Source: Candidatus Aenigmatarchaeota archaeon (GTDB taxonomy: Archaea; Aenigmatarchaeota; Aenigmatarchaeia; QMZP01; JAFGSV01). Taken from it: DNA of 13,335 bases. The translations under genes were made by a program, and so were the position numbers. Position 1 is the stretch's first letter. Each line of letters opens with the position of its first letter. The DNA lies in NCBI GenBank assembly GCA_030624445.1, contig JAUXKD010000002.1, forward strand, positions 1 to 13,335, given 5' to 3'. Positions 722-8,915 of the stretch are shown piece after piece. Below the pieces are notes generated by a model. It was given only the letters and a program-made list of their open reading frames with translations, searched no databases and had not been told where the DNA came from.

Positions 722-1372
722 ATGATAAAGGTAATCATATTCGATTTCGACGGGGTCCTGGTGGACTCCAACGAGGCGTGGATCGGCATATTCAACAAGG
801 CGTCGAAGGCTGCCGGCGTTAGGAGAAGCTTCACCTACGAAGACATAAGGCCGCACTACGGAAAGCCTTACATCGAGGTCTTCAGGAGCGCCCACCCGAA
901 GTTCAGGGAAAGCGACAATGTTCTGGATCTCATGTACGCCAATTTCATGGACCTTGCAAATTCCGACGATTTCACGGACTCCTTCAGGCCTATCAGCGGC
1001 ATCAAGGGTGTGCTGGGTAAGCTCAGCAAGAAGTGCAGGCTGGCCGTGGGATCGGGAAACAGCAACCGCATACTCAACAGGTTCCTTAAAAAGCTAGGCC
1101 TCAGGAAATATTTCGATTTCGTGGTTGGCGGCGACCAGGTCAAGAGGGGAAAGCCGAACCCTGACATGCTGCTTAAGATCATGAACCATTTCAACGTCTC
1201 CCCCGATGAGGCCGTTTACGTCGGCGATTCCATGTCCGACATAATCGCGGCCAAGAGGGCGAAAATGAAGTCTGTGGCCGTCCTGACGGGTGCCCTGAGC
1301 AGGGAACAGGCGGAAGAGCTGCGGCCTGATTTCATACTCGACAACGCCACGCAGGTGCAGGAGGTCCTGTGA
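722..1372 (+). CDS. HAD-superfamily hydrolase, subfamily IA (phosphoglycolate phosphatase-like)
   Basis: A haloacid dehalogenase-type phosphatase with all four motifs: motif I DFDGVLVDS (D8 nucleophile, D10), motif II AVGSGN (S111), motif III lysine in KRGKPNPD (K144), and motif IV VYVGDSMSDIIAA (D169, D173). The stretch of about 80 residues after motif I is a small helical C1 cap, as in phosphoglycolate phosphatases, beta-phosphoglucomutases and pyrophosphatase PpaX. The length, 216 residues, is normal for the group. The substrate cannot be read from sequence; phosphoglycolate is only the most common annotation. The stop codon overlaps the ATG of cutA by one base (TGATG), so the two are very probably co-transcribed and translationally coupled. 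The first ATG after the TATA box is taken as the start. Confidence 0.9.
   Translation: MIKVIIFDFDGVLVDSNEAWIGIFNKASKAAGVRRSFTYEDIRPHYGKPYIEVFRSAHPKFRESDNVLDLMYANFMDLANSDDFTDSFRPISGIKGVLGKLSKKCRLAVGSGNSNRILNRFLKKLGLRKYFDFVVGGDQVKRGKPNPDMLLKIMNHFNVSPDEAVYVGDSMSDIIAAKRAKMKSVAVLTGALSREQAEELRPDFILDNATQVQEVL
1360..1365 (+). promoter_or_regulatory. Shine-Dalgarno deciding the cutA start
   Basis: GGAGGT, a full match to the 16S rRNA 3' end, lies inside the end of the HAD gene, six bases before ATG 1372. That spacing favours ATG 1372 over the in-frame GTG at 1369. Confidence 0.75.
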
Positions 1373-1695
1373 TGTATGTGATTGTCCTGGTCACGTGCCC
1401 TGACGAAAAGACCGCGGAGGGCCTTTCAGACGCGATTCTGAATAGGAGGCTCGCGGCGTGCGTGAACACGGTATCAGGAATGACGAGCAAGTACTGGTGG
1501 AAGGGGAAGCTGGAGAAAAACAGGGAGCACCTGATGATCATAAAAACCGTCGAAAGCCGGCTTGAAGAGCTTGAAAAAACGGTCAAGGAAAACCATCCGT
1601 ACGAGGTGCCGGAATTCATTGCGCTTCCCGTCACCTCCGGCTCAAAGGACTACCTGGGCTGGCTGAAAAAGGAGACCGGTCCGCTTCCGGACTAA
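1372..1695 (+). CDS. cutA: CutA1 divalent-ion tolerance family protein
   Basis: CutA1 proteins are very stable cytoplasmic trimers, linked in bacteria to copper/divalent cation tolerance; the biochemical role in archaea is not settled. The protein is 107 residues, the usual length, and carries the family signatures in order: VTCPDEKTAEGL near the N terminus, AACVN (C30-N32), YWWKGK (Y41-K46), KT at 58-59 and HPYEVPE (H75-E81). The start at 1372 is set by the preceding Shine-Dalgarno. It is the second gene of a HAD-cutA unit. Its stop lies six bases from the stop of the convergent enolase-like gene; a small inverted repeat (AAGGG/CCCTT, 1694-1710) spans both stops and may help termination from both sides, though it is short. 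Confidence 0.95.
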   Translation: MYVIVLVTCPDEKTAEGLSDAILNRRLAACVNTVSGMTSKYWWKGKLEKNREHLMIIKTVESRLEELEKTVKENHPYEVPEFIALPVTSGSKDYLGWLKKETGPLPD

Positions 1696-1701
1696 GGGGA
1701 A

Positions 1702-2850
1702 TCATCCCTTCAGGCCCGTAAGGCTCATCCTCGGGGCCGGAGAATCTTCCCATATCTCAAGCAGCCTGTTGAATTTGGATACGTTCCCCACACCCAGAAT
1801 CCCGAGCTTGAGCATGTCTGCACCGAACGCAACGGACAGGTCCGCGACCCAGTTGTCGGATGTTTCCCTGTCGAACCTGGAAAGCATAAGCTTGAGGCCC
1901 TTTCCTTTGGTCAGTTCGGATATTTCGGCCAGCTGGGATATCGTTGACAGGTCATCTGGTTTCACCGATACGGCCTTTGTGGACATGCTCTTGGCCCCCC
2001 TCTTTATCCTCGAGATTTGCGCACCGTAGAGTTCGCAGCCCGAGATGATGGTGTCTTCGAGCTTGTGGCTGAGGTACGCGTGGGACAGGAAATCCGAGCT
2101 GCGGAAGGGGTCCTCCATGTACCATATCTTGTACTGCTCCATTATCGCCGATATCAGGCTCGCGTGCTCATGGGCCGAGAGGCTGCTTCTTATCGCCATC
2201 CTCTCGAAGTTGTAATTGTAAGTCCTGTTTTTCCAGAGCGAAGTGGCTCTCATGTTTATGCCGAGCCTCATCTTCCAGTCTCTTGCAATCTGGTCGATAA
2301 AGTAGAGGGTTTCTATGTCGTCCAGGTCGGTAAGCCATGCCCCGCTGGCCGTCCTGCCCCTGAGGAATCCCTTCTTTCCCAGCTCTTCGCCCGTGACCTT
2401 AAAGGCTTCCCTGAGAGACACGAATGCGTCCATGACGCTCGTCTCCCTGTGGGGTATAAGCAGGAACTCTTTCCAGTCAGTCCCCTGCGCGACAGACCCT
2501 ACGATGTGGGGGAACCACTTCTTCGTTCCGTTGATCTTCCACAGCTCGTTTTGGGTGGCTGCCCTGGCGCAGGCCAGCGACAGCGCCATGCTCATGGAGG
2601 GATCGATCTCCTTATTGGAATTCAACTGCGACAGGAAAGAATCGAATGACACCCAGTCCTCTTCGTTGAGGCCTATGAAGTTTGGCCTTATGGACGAAAA
2701 GAGGCTTCTCAGCCTTTTGAGCTTTTCCGGGGTGCCTTCCGCGAGAGGGACCTCCGCCTGATAGACGCCGGAACGTGTCCACAGTTTCACGAGCAGCGCA
2801 TAGGTTCCTGAACCGTTCAAAATCACGTAAAGTTTAACGTTCTGTATCAC
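1702..2850 (-). CDS. Degenerate enolase homologue (probable pseudoenzyme) at the rpoK-eno locus
   Basis: The full length aligns by eye with enolase, but most of the active site is gone. Recognisable landmarks: an N-terminal domain with LYVILNGSGTYALLVKL in place of REILDSRGNPTVEVEV; WKEFLLIP (E128, like yeast E168); YMEDPF (E246, like Mg ligand E295); SVKPDDLSTIS (K297, like K345); LSRFDRETSDNWVADL in place of SHRSGETED; LKLG (K348, like K396); and the family's C-terminal SKFNRLLEI. Lost: the DEGG motif with the catalytic Glu (yeast E211) is absent; Mg ligand D246 is N199; Mg ligand D320 falls at C272; the loop histidine H159 is absent; H373 is R325. It has 382 residues against about 420-430 for archaeal enolases. 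The start is GTG 2850. It follows rpoK, the conserved archaeal order. 2-phosphoglycerate dehydration activity looks unlikely; the role is unknown. The open, full-length frame argues against a dead pseudogene. Confidence 0.82.
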   Translation of the reverse strand: MIQNVKLYVILNGSGTYALLVKLWTRSGVYQAEVPLAEGTPEKLKRLRSLFSSIRPNFIGLNEEDWVSFDSFLSQLNSNKEIDPSMSMALSLACARAATQNELWKINGTKKWFPHIVGSVAQGTDWKEFLLIPHRETSVMDAFVSLREAFKVTGEELGKKGFLRGRTASGAWLTDLDDIETLYFIDQIARDWKMRLGINMRATSLWKNRTYNYNFERMAIRSSLSAHEHASLISAIMEQYKIWYMEDPFRSSDFLSHAYLSHKLEDTIISGCELYGAQISRIKRGAKSMSTKAVSVKPDDLSTISQLAEISELTKGKGLKLMLSRFDRETSDNWVADLSVAFGADMLKLGILGVGNVSKFNRLLEIWEDSPAPRMSLTGLKG

Positions 2851-2880
2851 GGTATATCAATAAATTATATGATTTCGGGG

Positions 2881-2890
2881 CTTTAATAAG
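2881..2890 (-). promoter_or_regulatory. Possible TATA box for the enolase-like gene
   Basis: On the minus strand it reads CTTATTAAAG, about 35 nt before GTG 2850, predicting a leader of about 10 nt. A second AT-rich stretch at 2860-2872 is too close to the start codon. Read-through from rpoK is equally possible. Confidence 0.3.
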
Positions 2891-2979
2891 AGCATACATA
2901 AAAGCCCGGAACATCGGAATGAGAAATTAACGCCGGACGTCCGCGCCTGGGAAAGTTCCTGGCAGTGGAGCGTAAAGAA

Positions 2980-3186
2980 TCAGAATGTCCTATGCCTGGT
3001 TTCTATCGGGATGAGGTTGTTCTCCCATTCCACTTTTGCGATTTCGACAGGGTTTATCATGCCCTTGGGTATCTTCGCGAGCACCGGGGCCCCCTGGGAG
3101 ATCTGCAAGGCCCTGGCCGATATTATCCTTATCTTCTCGTAGTGCGAGTATTCTTCTTTTTTCCTCATGTCACCCAACTCTTGCAT
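2980..3186 (-). CDS. rpoK: DNA-directed RNA polymerase subunit K (Rpb6 family)
   Basis: A small core subunit of archaeal RNA polymerase, homologous to eukaryotic Rpb6 and bacterial omega, which helps assemble and stabilise the enzyme. The protein (68 residues from this start) contains the family block YEKIRIISARALQIS, then GAPVLAKIPKG, NPVEIAKVEWE and the terminal IPIETRR-like IPIETRHRTF. Three in-frame starts exist: GTG 3195, ATG 3186 and ATG 3168. ATG 3186 is preferred because GTGAT lies five bases before it and the TATA box at 3215-3224 predicts transcription starting near 3195. The enolase-like gene follows downstream on the same strand, as in the ancestral archaeal rpoN-rpoK-eno-rpsB cluster; here rpoN and rpsB are not adjacent. 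Confidence 0.95.
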   Translation of the reverse strand: MQELGDMRKKEEYSHYEKIRIISARALQISQGAPVLAKIPKGMINPVEIAKVEWENNLIPIETRHRTF

Positions 3187-3214
3187 TAGAATCACGATTT
3201 AATAGTGTGATTGG

Positions 3215-3225: not shown

Positions 3226-4014
3226 TTAGCCGATGTACCTCAGTTCTTCGCCCGAGGGAACCTTGGGACCCTTGCTGAGTTCCGAGAGCGCCTTCCTCTG
3301 AAGGCCTTCGACCTTTTTGATGAAATCCTTCATTTCATCCACCTTCTTTTCAAGCTTGCCCATGTTTATTTTCAGTTTCAGTATACTGACCACCACGTCG
3401 AGAACCGTTTCTGCGGCTTTCGGGTCCGTGACTATGGGAAATCCGCTCGTCTGGCCAAGCAGGCAGAGTCCTTCCATCCCCCTTTCCTTGCCGAGACCGG
3501 GGAGCAGTCCGGCGGCCCCGACGATGTAACCGACCTTTTCGCCCGCCCTGAAATCTATTTTGTATTTCGCGTATTTCTTCCTGACCTTTTCGTCGGTAAC
3601 GGAGCCCATCACCCGGTCGGCGGATTCGAGGTCACCAGTGGCAAGACCACCAATCGTTATGATTTCCTTGACTCCCAGCTCTTCGATGAAGTCAAGGATT
3701 TTATCTGTCACCTCGTAGTGTCCCTGTGGTGAGAGAGACTGGCAGTCCCCTATAAGAAAAATAACGTCCCTCTGCCCGCGCCCCTTGGCCTTCAAGTAGT
3801 AGAACTCGTTCTTCAGCAGGTGGATCTTGTATTTATCATGCAGCATGACGAAAGGGAAAAACCACTTTGAATAGAGCGTTGCGAATTTTTTTGCCTTGAG
3901 CTCGCTGATGAGATAGCCAACAGCCACACGGCCGATGTTTCCAACACCGGGAAGACCTTCTATCAGTATAGGGTCTTTCAGCTTGGGCTTTTCAGAAACC
4001 TTTACGACAGTCAT
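3226..4014 (-). CDS. PAC2 family protein (archaeal proteasome-assembly-chaperone homologue)
   Basis: PAC2-family proteins include the eukaryotic proteasome assembly chaperone PAC2 and archaeal PbaA/PbaB, which bind proteasome components. The protein has 262 residues. The N-terminal ILIEGLPGVGNIGRVAVGYL (about 16-35) is the family's signature; other conserved features are a FLIGDCQ segment, IITIGGLATGDLE and GAAGLLPGLGKERGMEGLCLLGQT. A charged helical stretch near 215-250 looks like a short coiled coil. The C terminus is ELRYIG: a tyrosine near the end, as in proteasome-binding tails, but not a strict HbYX motif because the tyrosine is third from last. The ATG at 4014 has a GAGGT Shine-Dalgarno (4022-4026) seven bases upstream. 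A proteasome-related role is inference from family membership. Confidence 0.87.
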   Translation of the reverse strand: MTVVKVSEKPKLKDPILIEGLPGVGNIGRVAVGYLISELKAKKFATLYSKWFFPFVMLHDKYKIHLLKNEFYYLKAKGRGQRDVIFLIGDCQSLSPQGHYEVTDKILDFIEELGVKEIITIGGLATGDLESADRVMGSVTDEKVRKKYAKYKIDFRAGEKVGYIVGAAGLLPGLGKERGMEGLCLLGQTSGFPIVTDPKAAETVLDVVVSILKLKINMGKLEKKVDEMKDFIKKVEGLQRKALSELSKGPKVPSGEELRYIG

Positions 4015-5021: not shown

Positions 5022-5840
5022 TCATTTTTCTATTATCATGTATTCCGCCGCTTCCCAGATGTCTATGACCTCTTCGACGTCTATGCCGACGTCCCGTTCT
5101 ATATCGATCTTGACGGGGTACGTTTCGCTCGTGCAGAAATCCGTCCAGCCTATCTTTTCGCAGTATTCCCTCGTCTTGTATATGACCTGCACGGATTGCG
5201 TGAGTGGGACGAGAAGTGTCTGTGCACCCACGTCTTTCGACGCGACGGCCTTCTCAAAGATGCCGCCGACAGGGCCGATGGTCCCGTCGTGGTTGACGGA
5301 GCCCGTTATCATGATGGAGTGATTGATTGTCTTGTTTTCGATGGCCGCTATGGTGGCAATGGTTATCGCGGCGCCGGCCGAGGGCCCGCCGATCACAGAG
5401 GCGTTAGCTGTTATGGTGTATACTATGTCGTAATTGCTCACGTTTTTGCCGGTGACGTTCTCTGCCACCATGGTGGCTCTCCTTATCGAATTCTGTGTAT
5501 CGACCCAGAAAAGGAGCCTGTCAATGTTGGTCAGGATCCGGCCAGATCCGGGAAGCACCTGCACCGTCATAAGCGTAACGACACCGGTGTCGTCCTTGTC
5601 CACCGCGGGTATTCTCACCGTGACGGTGGATGACGCGTTCGTGTTAAGAAGCATCTCATAGTCGAAAGATTTCATCGTTATTCCGGTCTTCTGGGGCATT
5701 GTGGCGTTGTAGACAACCACCTTTTCCCCGCTGAAAAAATTCCCCATGATGATACCGCTGAAAAATGCTATCACTAACAATAGCGAGACGGCTAGCTTGG
5801 TCTTCCATGTTTTCTTTTTCCTGGGCCAGTAATCGTACAT
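5022..5840 (-). CDS. Membrane-anchored Lon-like (S16) serine protease, archaeal type
   Basis: A protease with the Lon catalytic Ser-Lys dyad but no ATPase domain. After a basic N terminus (RKKKTWKTK) comes one transmembrane helix (about 15-33, LAVSLLLVIAFFSGIIMG), so the C-terminal domain probably faces outside (positive-inside rule). The protease domain shows VIGGPSAGAAIT with nucleophile S154 and IGPVGGIFEKAVAS with K197; the 43-residue spacing is the same as in Lon. The region before it carries several N-X-S/T sequons, consistent with an outer location. It resembles the archaeal serine protease group COG1750. ATG 5840 has a G-rich GCGGGGGAC site (5848-5856) upstream. It starts only 35 bases after the SRP RNA with no clear promoter between, so read-through from the SRP RNA promoter is likely. 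Substrates are unknown. Confidence 0.9.
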   Translation of the reverse strand: MYDYWPRKKKTWKTKLAVSLLLVIAFFSGIIMGNFFSGEKVVVYNATMPQKTGITMKSFDYEMLLNTNASSTVTVRIPAVDKDDTGVVTLMTVQVLPGSGRILTNIDRLLFWVDTQNSIRRATMVAENVTGKNVSNYDIVYTITANASVIGGPSAGAAITIATIAAIENKTINHSIMITGSVNHDGTIGPVGGIFEKAVASKDVGAQTLLVPLTQSVQVIYKTREYCEKIGWTDFCTSETYPVKIDIERDVGIDVEEVIDIWEAAEYMIIEK

Positions 5841-5875: not shown

Positions 5876-6152
5876 GGCAGAAGAACGCCTTTGATGGATA
5901 TCAGCATCCGGTACCGGTTTGTCCTGGCATCCTTCTCCACTCTTGTATCCTGCAAGCACCACTAACGCAACTTAAGGATGCTCCATTCCTGGCCTGACCT
6001 GTTTCGCCATGATAACAGTCCTGCAGGGCAGAGCTTCGCAGTCGGACATCAGGGCCGATTCCGTGCACCGAAACCGCTCTCGGGCTTCGACCCCGCCATG
6101 AAGACGGTTTGCGGTAACAGGCTACGCCCAGCAGCCCGGCCTATCTTCTGCC
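5876..6152 (-). ncRNA. ffs: Archaeal signal recognition particle RNA (7S RNA)
   Basis: Read on the minus strand, this 277-nt region shows the archaeal SRP RNA layout. The ends pair perfectly over nine bases (GGCAGAAGA at 6144-6152, TCTTCTGCC at 5876-5884), forming helix 1. The 5' part matches the Alu domain: ATAGGCCGGGC, then CTGTTACCGCAAACCG (UGUNR-type loop) and GGGTCGAAGCCCGAGAGCGG. The S domain has the diagnostic helix 8 strands: GGTCAGGCCAGGAATGGAGC (5980-5999) and GGTGCTTGCAGG (5949-5960), the SRP54-binding internal loops. A minus-strand TATA box (6173-6180) lies 25 nt before the predicted 5' end, and TTTT follows the 3' end. It scaffolds SRP19 and SRP54 for membrane targeting of proteins. 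It is slightly shorter than the usual about 300 nt. The fold was judged by eye. Confidence 0.93.
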
Positions 6153-7727: not shown

Positions 7728-8849
7728 TCAGCCGAACTCATTCTGCCAGTCATCGTATTTTTCCAGCACGGGTTCCTTCGAAGACGGCTTGACCTTCCCA
7801 AAGGCATGCCCGAAGTCTGACGGGAGCATCTCCCTGGTCCCCAGCGTGTAAATCTCCAGCTGCTTTGCGGTAAGGTCTTCAAGGCCGGGGTTTTTCTCGG
7901 TTATCATGTTTGTAACCGCCTCCTGGCAGAGGCCCGCTATATCCCGGCCGCTGTATCCTGCGCTGTTATCAACGAGCTCTTGAAGGTTCACCCCGCTCAG
8001 GTCGGCACCCATCAGGTGAACCTCGAAGATGGCTTTCCTTGATGCCCCATCAGGCAGGGGAACGTAAATCTTTGACTGGAACCTGCTCAGAAGCGCGTCG
8101 TCGAGGTCCCACGGCTTGTTCGTTGCGCCCATGAAGAGCACCTTATCTTCGCGCCTGCTGTCGAATCCGTCCATTTCGGAAAGCATCTGCCCGAGGACCC
8201 TCCTGCTGCTCTCGTCGATTCCACCTTCCCTCTTCGCGGCTATAGAGTCGATCTCGTCCATGAAAATAAGCGAGGGTTGCATTTTTCTGGCCTTCGAGAA
8301 GAGCCCTGAAATGATCTTGCTGGACTCGCCGAAGAACTTCGAAAGCAGGCCGGACCCCTTTGCCTCGAAAAACGTGGCGCTGAGCGTGTTGGAGCTCGCC
8401 TTGGCCAGCATGGTCTTGCCCGTGCCCGGCGGGCCGTAAAGCAGTATGGATTTAGCCACATCCACGAAATCAGGTCTGCCACGCACGAAAGGCATTATTA
8501 TCGCATGTTTGAGGGTTTTTTTGGCCTCTTCCAGCCCTCCAATGTCTTCCCACTTCGTGGCGGGCTTCTGGGTGACTATGAGCTGGTCGATGGTGTCAGG
8601 GGATTTCGCCCTCACGTATCCGGTGGTGGTGGTGATTATTTTACCCACGGACTCGTACTGGGAGGCCGTCTGAAAGAAATCCTCGGCGTCCTCCCTGGGC
8701 GCCTGATAAGCGAGCCTCCTTGATATCATTCCTGCCTTGAGAAAATGTGTACCGGCCTCTTTTTCCTTTCCCTCAGATTCAAGCCTGCGGGCGGTGTCAA
8801 GCTCCAACTGAAGCTGCTGCTTCAGTATGTTCTGCCTGAGTTCACCCAT
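7728..8849 (-). CDS. Vps4/CdvC-like AAA ATPase with N-terminal MIT-like region
   Basis: A cytoplasmic AAA ATPase of the Vps4/CdvC class, which disassembles or remodels ESCRT-III filaments. From the ATG at 8849 (373 residues): an MIT-like helical bundle (about 1-70), a WEDIGGLEEAKKTL linker helix motif (100-113), Walker A GPPGTGKT (139-146), pore loop LLSKFFGES, Walker B LIFMDEID (194-201), GATNKPWDLDDALLSRF with sensor asparagine N244 and R256, and a Vps4-like tail FGKVKPSS...VLEKYDDWQNEFG. Differences from typical Vps4 are a Phe instead of Trp in the pore loop and SRF instead of RRF at the arginine finger. ATG 8912 would add 21 residues but is rejected: a TATA box lies at 8868-8878, 24 nt before 8849, so 8849 is a leaderless start. 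A coiled-coil ESCRT-III-like gene is nearby on the same strand. Confidence 0.88.
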   Translation of the reverse strand: MGELRQNILKQQLQLELDTARRLESEGKEKEAGTHFLKAGMISRRLAYQAPREDAEDFFQTASQYESVGKIITTTTGYVRAKSPDTIDQLIVTQKPATKWEDIGGLEEAKKTLKHAIIMPFVRGRPDFVDVAKSILLYGPPGTGKTMLAKASSNTLSATFFEAKGSGLLSKFFGESSKIISGLFSKARKMQPSLIFMDEIDSIAAKREGGIDESSRRVLGQMLSEMDGFDSRREDKVLFMGATNKPWDLDDALLSRFQSKIYVPLPDGASRKAIFEVHLMGADLSGVNLQELVDNSAGYSGRDIAGLCQEAVTNMITEKNPGLEDLTAKQLEIYTLGTREMLPSDFGHAFGKVKPSSKEPVLEKYDDWQNEFG

Positions 8850-8867
8850 AAGATTAAATTCCGGCTT

Positions 8868-8878
8868 AAAATTTAAAA
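8868..8878 (-). promoter_or_regulatory. TATA box for the AAA ATPase (leaderless)
   Basis: On the minus strand it reads TTTTAAATTTT, centred 24 nt before ATG 8849. It lies inside the longer alternative frame from 8912, which is why the shorter start is preferred. Confidence 0.65.
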
Positions 8879-8896
8879 GCGTTAATGAAGTTTCAG

Positions 8897-8903
8897 AAAA
8901 AAA
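8897..8903 (-). terminator. T7 run after the small AT-rich gene
   Basis: Seven consecutive T on the minus strand, 13 bases after the stop at 8916, is enough to act as an archaeal oligo-T terminator. It would separate the transcript of the 90-residue gene from the ATPase. Confidence 0.4.
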
Positions 8904-8915
8904 TGGTTTCATATT

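Follow-up and report, generated by a model that had tools for sequence, protein, structure and literature searches.

Why would an archaeon keep, beside a gene for an RNA polymerase subunit, a protein with the fold of enolase that has lost most of the enolase active site? The question is raised by a 13,335-nucleotide stretch of DNA from Candidatus Aenigmatarchaeota archaeon (GenBank assembly GCA_030624445.1, contig JAUXKD010000002.1), hereafter the window, in which an earlier note made from the sequence alone had placed such a homologue at positions 1702 to 3186. That interval does contain the gene, here called eno', but it also spans most of rpoK. The gene itself occupies 1702..2850 on the minus strand, starts with GTG, and encodes 382 amino acids with no internal stop, in agreement with the intact frame of 382 codons described in the note. 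The archaeal order rpoN-rpoK-eno-rpsB that the note cited is kept only in part, as rpoK adjoins eno' but rpoN and rpsB are not adjacent in the window. The gene has PAC2 and rpoK on its upstream side and CutA1, in convergent orientation, on its downstream side:

1369..1695, plus strand: CutA1, convergent downstream neighbour (profile match)
1702..2850, minus strand: eno', enolase-fold protein without an enolase active site (profiles, alignments, structure model)
2851..2979, minus strand: spacer of 129 bases that separates eno' from rpoK, rich in A and T ahead of the GTG
2980..3195, minus strand: rpoK, RNA polymerase subunit K / Rpb6 (profile match); the true start may be an ATG near 3168
3226..4014, minus strand: PAC2 gene, of the proteasome assembly chaperone family, upstream in the shared order (profile match)

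Elsewhere in the window, the minus strand carries an archaeal signal recognition particle RNA (5877-6151), which is also present in loci L032, L033, L035, and L036. It further encodes an AAA ATPase (7728-8912) that is closest to CdvC/Vps4 models while scoring below the CdvC cut-off, with small genes upstream, and a protein (5022-5840) whose C-terminal domain is a Lon-type protease and whose N-terminal stretch is, by eye, hydrophobic; there is no ATPase domain among its profile matches.

Profile searches place the eno' protein among enolases at a considerable distance. It matches Pfam Enolase_C with 64.7 bits (gathering cut-off 21.5), while Enolase_N reaches 21 bits against a gathering cut-off of 35, the NCBIfam eno model (TIGR01060) 100.8 bits against an equivalog cut-off of 300, and the MR_MLE_C branch of the enolase superfamily 17.4 bits against a gathering cut-off of 29.4. 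The next curated NCBIfam family, the enolase-like PRK08350 (NF006223), matches only the C-terminal part (residues 291-369), with 21.7 bits against a cut-off of 624. A PHROGs match was uninformative. In the structure model the enolase fold spans the whole protein, which bears out the full-length homology claimed before, and the mapped active-site residues lie on, or at most three residues from, successive strands (128-132, 163-166, 195-199, 244-246, 268-271, 293-296, 320-323, and 346-350). The top sequence matches and the best fold matches of the model are enolases, ruling out the different barrel enzyme family that the earlier note had raised against its own reading. Descent of eno' from enolase can be regarded as confirmed at the level of sequence.

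Active-site residues were mapped in the numbering of yeast enolase, using two MAFFT alignments (with 83 and with 129 other rows) and an hhalign profile-profile comparison of the window clade with 15 canonical-type enolases, and the mapping agrees across all three. The main codons, with coordinates obtained by arithmetic, are as follows (alignment):

2467..2469, minus strand: E128, yeast E168, kept
2344..2346, minus strand: S169, yeast E211, catalytic Glu lost
2254..2256, minus strand: N199, yeast D246, metal ligand lost
2113..2115, minus strand: E246, yeast E295, metal ligand kept
2035..2037, minus strand: C272, yeast D320, metal ligand lost
1960..1962, minus strand: K297, yeast K345, kept in the window and lost in the other 27 of 28 clade members
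1876..1878, minus strand: R325, yeast H373, lost
1807..1809, minus strand: K348, yeast K396, kept

D247, F326, and D327 correspond to D296, R374, and S375, respectively. Compared with enolase (EC 4.2.1.11; TIGR01060, PF00113/PF03952; e.g. Methanocaldococcus jannaschii MJ0232, PDB 2pa6), the protein is about 45 residues shorter than 2pa6 and lacks E211 (now S), D246 (N), D320 (C), H373 (R), R374 (F), and S375 (D), as well as H159, which falls within a deletion, and a normal S39 loop, which is shortened and replaced. E168, E295, D296, K345, and K396 are kept in all three alignments. The metal-ligand triad D246/E295/D320 therefore reads N, E, C and the acid/base pair E211 and K345 reads S and K, while among the substrate contacts (H159, H373, R374, S375, K396, and the S39 loop) only K396 is present. 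The residue calls that had been made by eye proved correct at every listed position, and no alignment brings back the three metal ligands or E211. These losses bear on whether eno' might be a working enolase that uses other residues. The window protein does have the equivalents of K345, K396, E168, and E295, but it has lost the catalytic Glu and two of its three metal ligands together with H159, H373, R374, and S375, K345 is absent from the other 27 counted relatives, and the genome has a canonical-type copy elsewhere, albeit with one in-frame TAG in the assembly. We consider this reading very improbable, and the protein would be unable to turn over 2-phosphoglycerate.

The same pattern runs through the window clade, for which 28 sequences were counted (five genomes and 23 database proteins; P0012 and P0026 as copies of G001 and G003, P0024 as a suspected G002 copy, and the masked or partial G005 copy and P0028 were left out). 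E211, D320, H373, R374, and H159 are kept in none of the 28, D246 in one, K345 in one (the window protein itself), and S375 in three, with D246 replaced by N in 25 and H373 by R in 22. By comparison, E168 is kept in 24, E295 in 25, K396 in 27, and D296 in all 28; the uncounted G005 copy, which has a masked stretch, carries D at E168 and S at K396. As several otherwise intact copies of group B, our term for the rpoK-linked short enolases of Aenigmatarchaeota, also lack H159, it was dropped as a criterion of intactness. Among 31 clade rows, two of them flagged duplicates, conservation is 0.84 for N199, 0.81 for R325, and 1.00 for G170, W172, W126, and W206. The residues that follow R325, E-T-x-D-x-W, show hardly any variation, while positions 211, 320, 345, 374, and 375 are variable. 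Many of the conserved residues are also present in intact relatives, and these shared residues may have a structural role.

A gene that has lost most of its active-site residues could simply be a pseudogene in decay whose frame is open by chance, and its amino-acid identity is indeed lower than that of the canonical-type copies (46-61% in 10 pairs from five genomes of the window's family, f1, against 65-81%). However, the matched frame has no stops in any of the six f1 genomes (G005 has a masked stretch), 53 columns are invariant across 27 clade sequences, and the protein is conserved while fourfold sites agree at only 24-36% in the 10 f1 pairs, which is close to random. Identities of neighbouring genes in the family are 51-70% for HAD and CutA (9 pairs), close to the eno' values, 70-81% for PAC2, and 56-80% for rpoK. 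The comparison of dN/dS across relatives that the earlier note had proposed points in the purifying direction (NG86 dN/dS 0.14-0.26 by arithmetic, with dS 1.3-2.6 in the 10 pairs). Because dS is saturated for eno', and undefined in some comparison-gene pairs, only this direction is claimed. Open frames, invariant columns, and constraint thus disfavour decay for the clade, and we give this explanation almost no credence, although individual genomes may be exceptions, for example G096, with broken frames in its group B copy. The eno' protein is an enzyme homologue that lacks essential catalytic residues and is maintained by selection, of which only the direction is firm, and both properties belong to our working definition of a pseudoenzyme.

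The window's genome (G000) contains two enolase matches, which answers the earlier suggestion to look for a second, intact enolase. The other match, on contig C4, is flanked by an Alba gene (Pfam) and by a PF01676 phosphoglycerate-mutase-type gene; when its stop is read through, it reaches 546.6 bits against the enolase model. That stop is a single in-frame TAG in the present assembly (L001:1457-1459), which may reflect an assembly error, a polymorphism, or a recent lesion; P0122, a relative 96% identical, is full-length and stop-free. Both types of enolase are matched in all six f1 genomes (G000-G005), the canonical-type match of G005 being split into two parts that are separated by about 430 kb on a single contig containing masked stretches. 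An Alba-type gene precedes the canonical-type enolase in 6/6 (Pfam checked for two) and a PF01676 gene follows it in 6/6. In these incomplete genomes, where absences are tentative, PGK is matched in 5/6, PF01676 in 6/6, PPDK_N in 6/6, and pyruvate kinase in 0/6. Two side observations concern enolases other than eno'. The L001 enolase (410-1657), P0122, and P0123 differ from the other canonical-type rows examined at D210 and neighbouring residues, and despite this odd loop they retain E211, the metal ligands, K345, and K396. A biased pattern scan (loci L107-L171) found E168 to D combined with H373 to A in 56 of 65 loci, apparently a distinct enolase class judging from these residues.

The closest kin of eno' are the group B enolases. 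The intact ones of the same order show the arrangement PAC2-rpoK-eno, often followed by rpsB, L19e, and L18 (one set Pfam-checked), and share with eno' this gene order and the length class. Group B copies differ in keeping the five core catalytic residues (in 77 genomes of the phylum without a canonical-type copy), and those of the order also in lying 2-40 bases from rpoK (14 copies with rpoK found), compared with 129 or more in the eno' clade. Two trees were built, neither of them rooted by data: a careful tree of 65 rows with the catalytic columns removed, and a quick one of 120 rows that used every column, from which contig-end pieces and four close rows were dropped. In the careful tree the window clade (100/100) has the intact G038 copy as its sister (97/98) and falls within a 33-row group (100/100) that comprises the copies of the order and one outsider, G119. 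G006 and G010 join the window clade in the quick tree (95* and 87) and sit in an open fork in the careful one, with G010 on a long branch in both. Both trees place the window clade beside the intact copies of the order, the exact sister being unsure, and the vertical inheritance proposed earlier is borne out by the tree without catalytic columns and by the common PAC2-rpoK-eno order. Four genomes with an intact rpoK-linked enolase (G014, G017, G034, and G038) have no PGK or pyruvate kinase match and do match PF01676 mutase and PPDK_N, so that their enolase apparently stands outside a full glycolysis.

To see how often such loss occurs, we surveyed 156 genomes of the phylum, 120 of which have a PF00113 match, at five core positions (E211, D246, E295, D320, and K345); the canonical-type calls for G045 and G136 are uncertain. 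Without a canonical-type copy there are 87 genomes: 77 are intact at all five positions, two are truncated but intact where readable, G096 has 4/5 with broken frames, G006 has 3/5, and four genomes of the genus g70 have 1/5 (G022 and G071 were not judged, and G080 and G106 were judged in part). Where all five positions could be read, this amounts to 77 of 83 intact. The remaining 33 genomes have a canonical-type copy, accompanied by a degraded rpoK-type copy in eight (G000-G005, G008, and G010), by an intact one in two (G099 and G136, the latter with a canonical-type piece of 86 amino acids at a contig end), and by no group B match in 23. The rpoK-type copy is therefore degraded in 8 of the 10 genomes that have both types, although the six f1 genomes are one lineage and one event, and the association rests on few independent events.

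The substitutions recur in related genomes, as the earlier note had asked, and they arose independently in at least one other lineage. Forcing g70 and the window clade into one clade costs 166 likelihood units (p-AU 8.9e-91), which rejects a single shared loss for g70, whereas G008, which groups with the intact G012 and G014 (100/96 in the careful tree), is separated only narrowly (32 units, p-AU 0.047); the AU test assumes groups named beforehand, and as ours were named by catalytic state after the first tree, both values are formally weaker. The G008 copy carries D in place of E168 and R in place of K396, so that the charges are preserved. All four g70 copies keep E168, E295, D296, and K396 and none keeps E211, D246, D320, K345, H373, R374, or S375. 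Of ten positions g70 thus retains exactly E168, E295, and K396, the same three that most of the window clade retains; the chance of such a coincidence is 1/120 by arithmetic if three of ten are kept at random. A structural need is the simplest reason for this match, and a common new ligand is a possible one. We did not find PGK, PF01676 mutase, or pyruvate kinase in any of the five g70 genomes, which are incomplete, so these absences are tentative; PPDK_N is weakly matched in one, and G091 has no enolase match. As the inactive protein is nevertheless kept in four of the five, glycolysis is an unlikely reason for its retention.

The retained residues also bear on whether the pocket was rebuilt for a new ligand or a metal-free reaction, giving changed chemistry or a small-molecule sensor. 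The mouth of the barrel is not simply eroding, as E168, E295, D296, and K396 are conserved together with N199, R325, G170, W172, W126, and W206, the motif after R325 is close to constant, and the kept trio recurs in g70. However, the variable positions 211, 320, 345, 374, and 375 and the shortened or missing S39 and H159 loops leave no evident constant acid/base set in the clade, and many conserved residues occur in intact relatives as well and may be structural. We view a rebuilt pocket as unlikely, if worth keeping in mind. Enolases are dimers or octamers, and eno' might instead serve as a non-catalytic partner subunit that tunes the canonical-type enolase of the genome through hetero-oligomer regulation. 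Its complete fold in the model and the presence of both types in the six f1 genomes, G008, and G010 would fit, but the four g70 genomes and G006 have a degraded copy and no canonical-type match (incomplete genomes), and the two proteins are distant, the window protein matching the canonical-type copy of G001 with 38.8 bits. This makes a partner subunit quite improbable in our judgement.

We instead favour, at roughly even confidence, the view that eno' is an rpoK-linked enolase turned pseudoenzyme that was kept for an ancestral non-catalytic job. The phylum's own rpoK-linked enolase would have lost its dehydratase chemistry in a family where a canonical-type enolase is encoded as well, with the second enolase probably arriving first and freeing the old copy. 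It would have been retained because the ancestral enolase also had a non-catalytic job, perhaps binding to another macromolecule, for instance scaffolding an RNA-related complex in the manner of enolase in bacterial degradosomes. E168, E295, D296, and K396 may persist as a network of charges that keeps the mouth of the barrel together after loss of the metals, although 4 of the 28 clade members lack E168 and 3 lack E295. As the likeliest function we propose non-catalytic protein binding, passed down from the ancestral enolase, and the fact that another lineage separately lost the active site yet retained the protein hints at such a further job. The 23 canonical-type genomes without an rpoK-type match imply that the proposed job is dispensable there or has moved, although the metagenome-assembled genomes are incomplete, and G099 has an intact rpoK-type copy alongside a canonical-type one.

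The gene neighbourhood offers a weak link to RNA machinery, through rpoK and through other genes near eno. Of 14 related loci outside the order, mostly from family f24 and its kin, 11 have a beta-CASP nuclease cluster close to eno (Pfam checked for three), and RtcA follows eno in three of four g70 loci. These neighbours may reflect inheritance only, because most of them also flank catalytically intact enolases. In G002-G005 the gap between rpoK and eno' widens to 745-1004 bases, and with no Rfam family and between-genome DNA conservation over only one 28-base match, a conserved RNA or gene in this gap finds no support in these comparisons. In G002-G004 the gap is filled by opposite-strand frames of 234-262 codons (L033:8094-8961, L034:4281-5025, and L035:7794-8733), which by eye may be divergent copies of one gene.

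Bacterial degradosome enolases are catalytically active. They resemble eno' in a possible RNA-linked role (the E. coli RNase E complex and the B. subtilis network) and differ in being bacterial, while eno' is archaeal and its putative RNA link comes from gene neighbourhood. Enolase in the degradosome-like network of B. subtilis provides a precedent (PMC8152036), and the likeness of eno' to such an enolase-fold protein with a possible RNA-linked, non-glycolytic role draws on PMC8152036 and PMC4435900. Pseudoenzymes and moonlighting enolases are known kinds of protein. In the open-access literature, judged by titles and the beginnings of abstracts, we recognised no description of an inactive enolase in Aenigmatarchaeota, nor did we find a conserved archaeal clade of enolase-derived pseudoenzymes with separate origins and matching kept residues. 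Passages of PMC8576121 and PMC11537232 held nothing bearing on the eno' protein.

Among the 28 nearest proteins listed (P0001-P0028), at least five are labelled enolase by a source. Such labels would misread the metabolism of these uncultured archaea and are a warning to annotators. Non-glycolytic roles of enolase are hard to study, as the protein is an essential enzyme. With the fold kept, the chemistry dropped, and a canonical-type enolase encoded separately, the family amounts to a natural experiment in separation of function, and the repeat of this experiment in another genus indicates the parts of the protein that may be required for the other role. It is a tentative possibility, which we rate below an even chance, that the rpoK-linked archaeal enolase has long had a second, non-catalytic function in gene expression, exposed by at least two erasures of the active site in Aenigmatarchaeota with the protein kept. 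If true, erasure where a second enolase is present or lower glycolysis is gone would reveal an ancient role that catalysis has masked.
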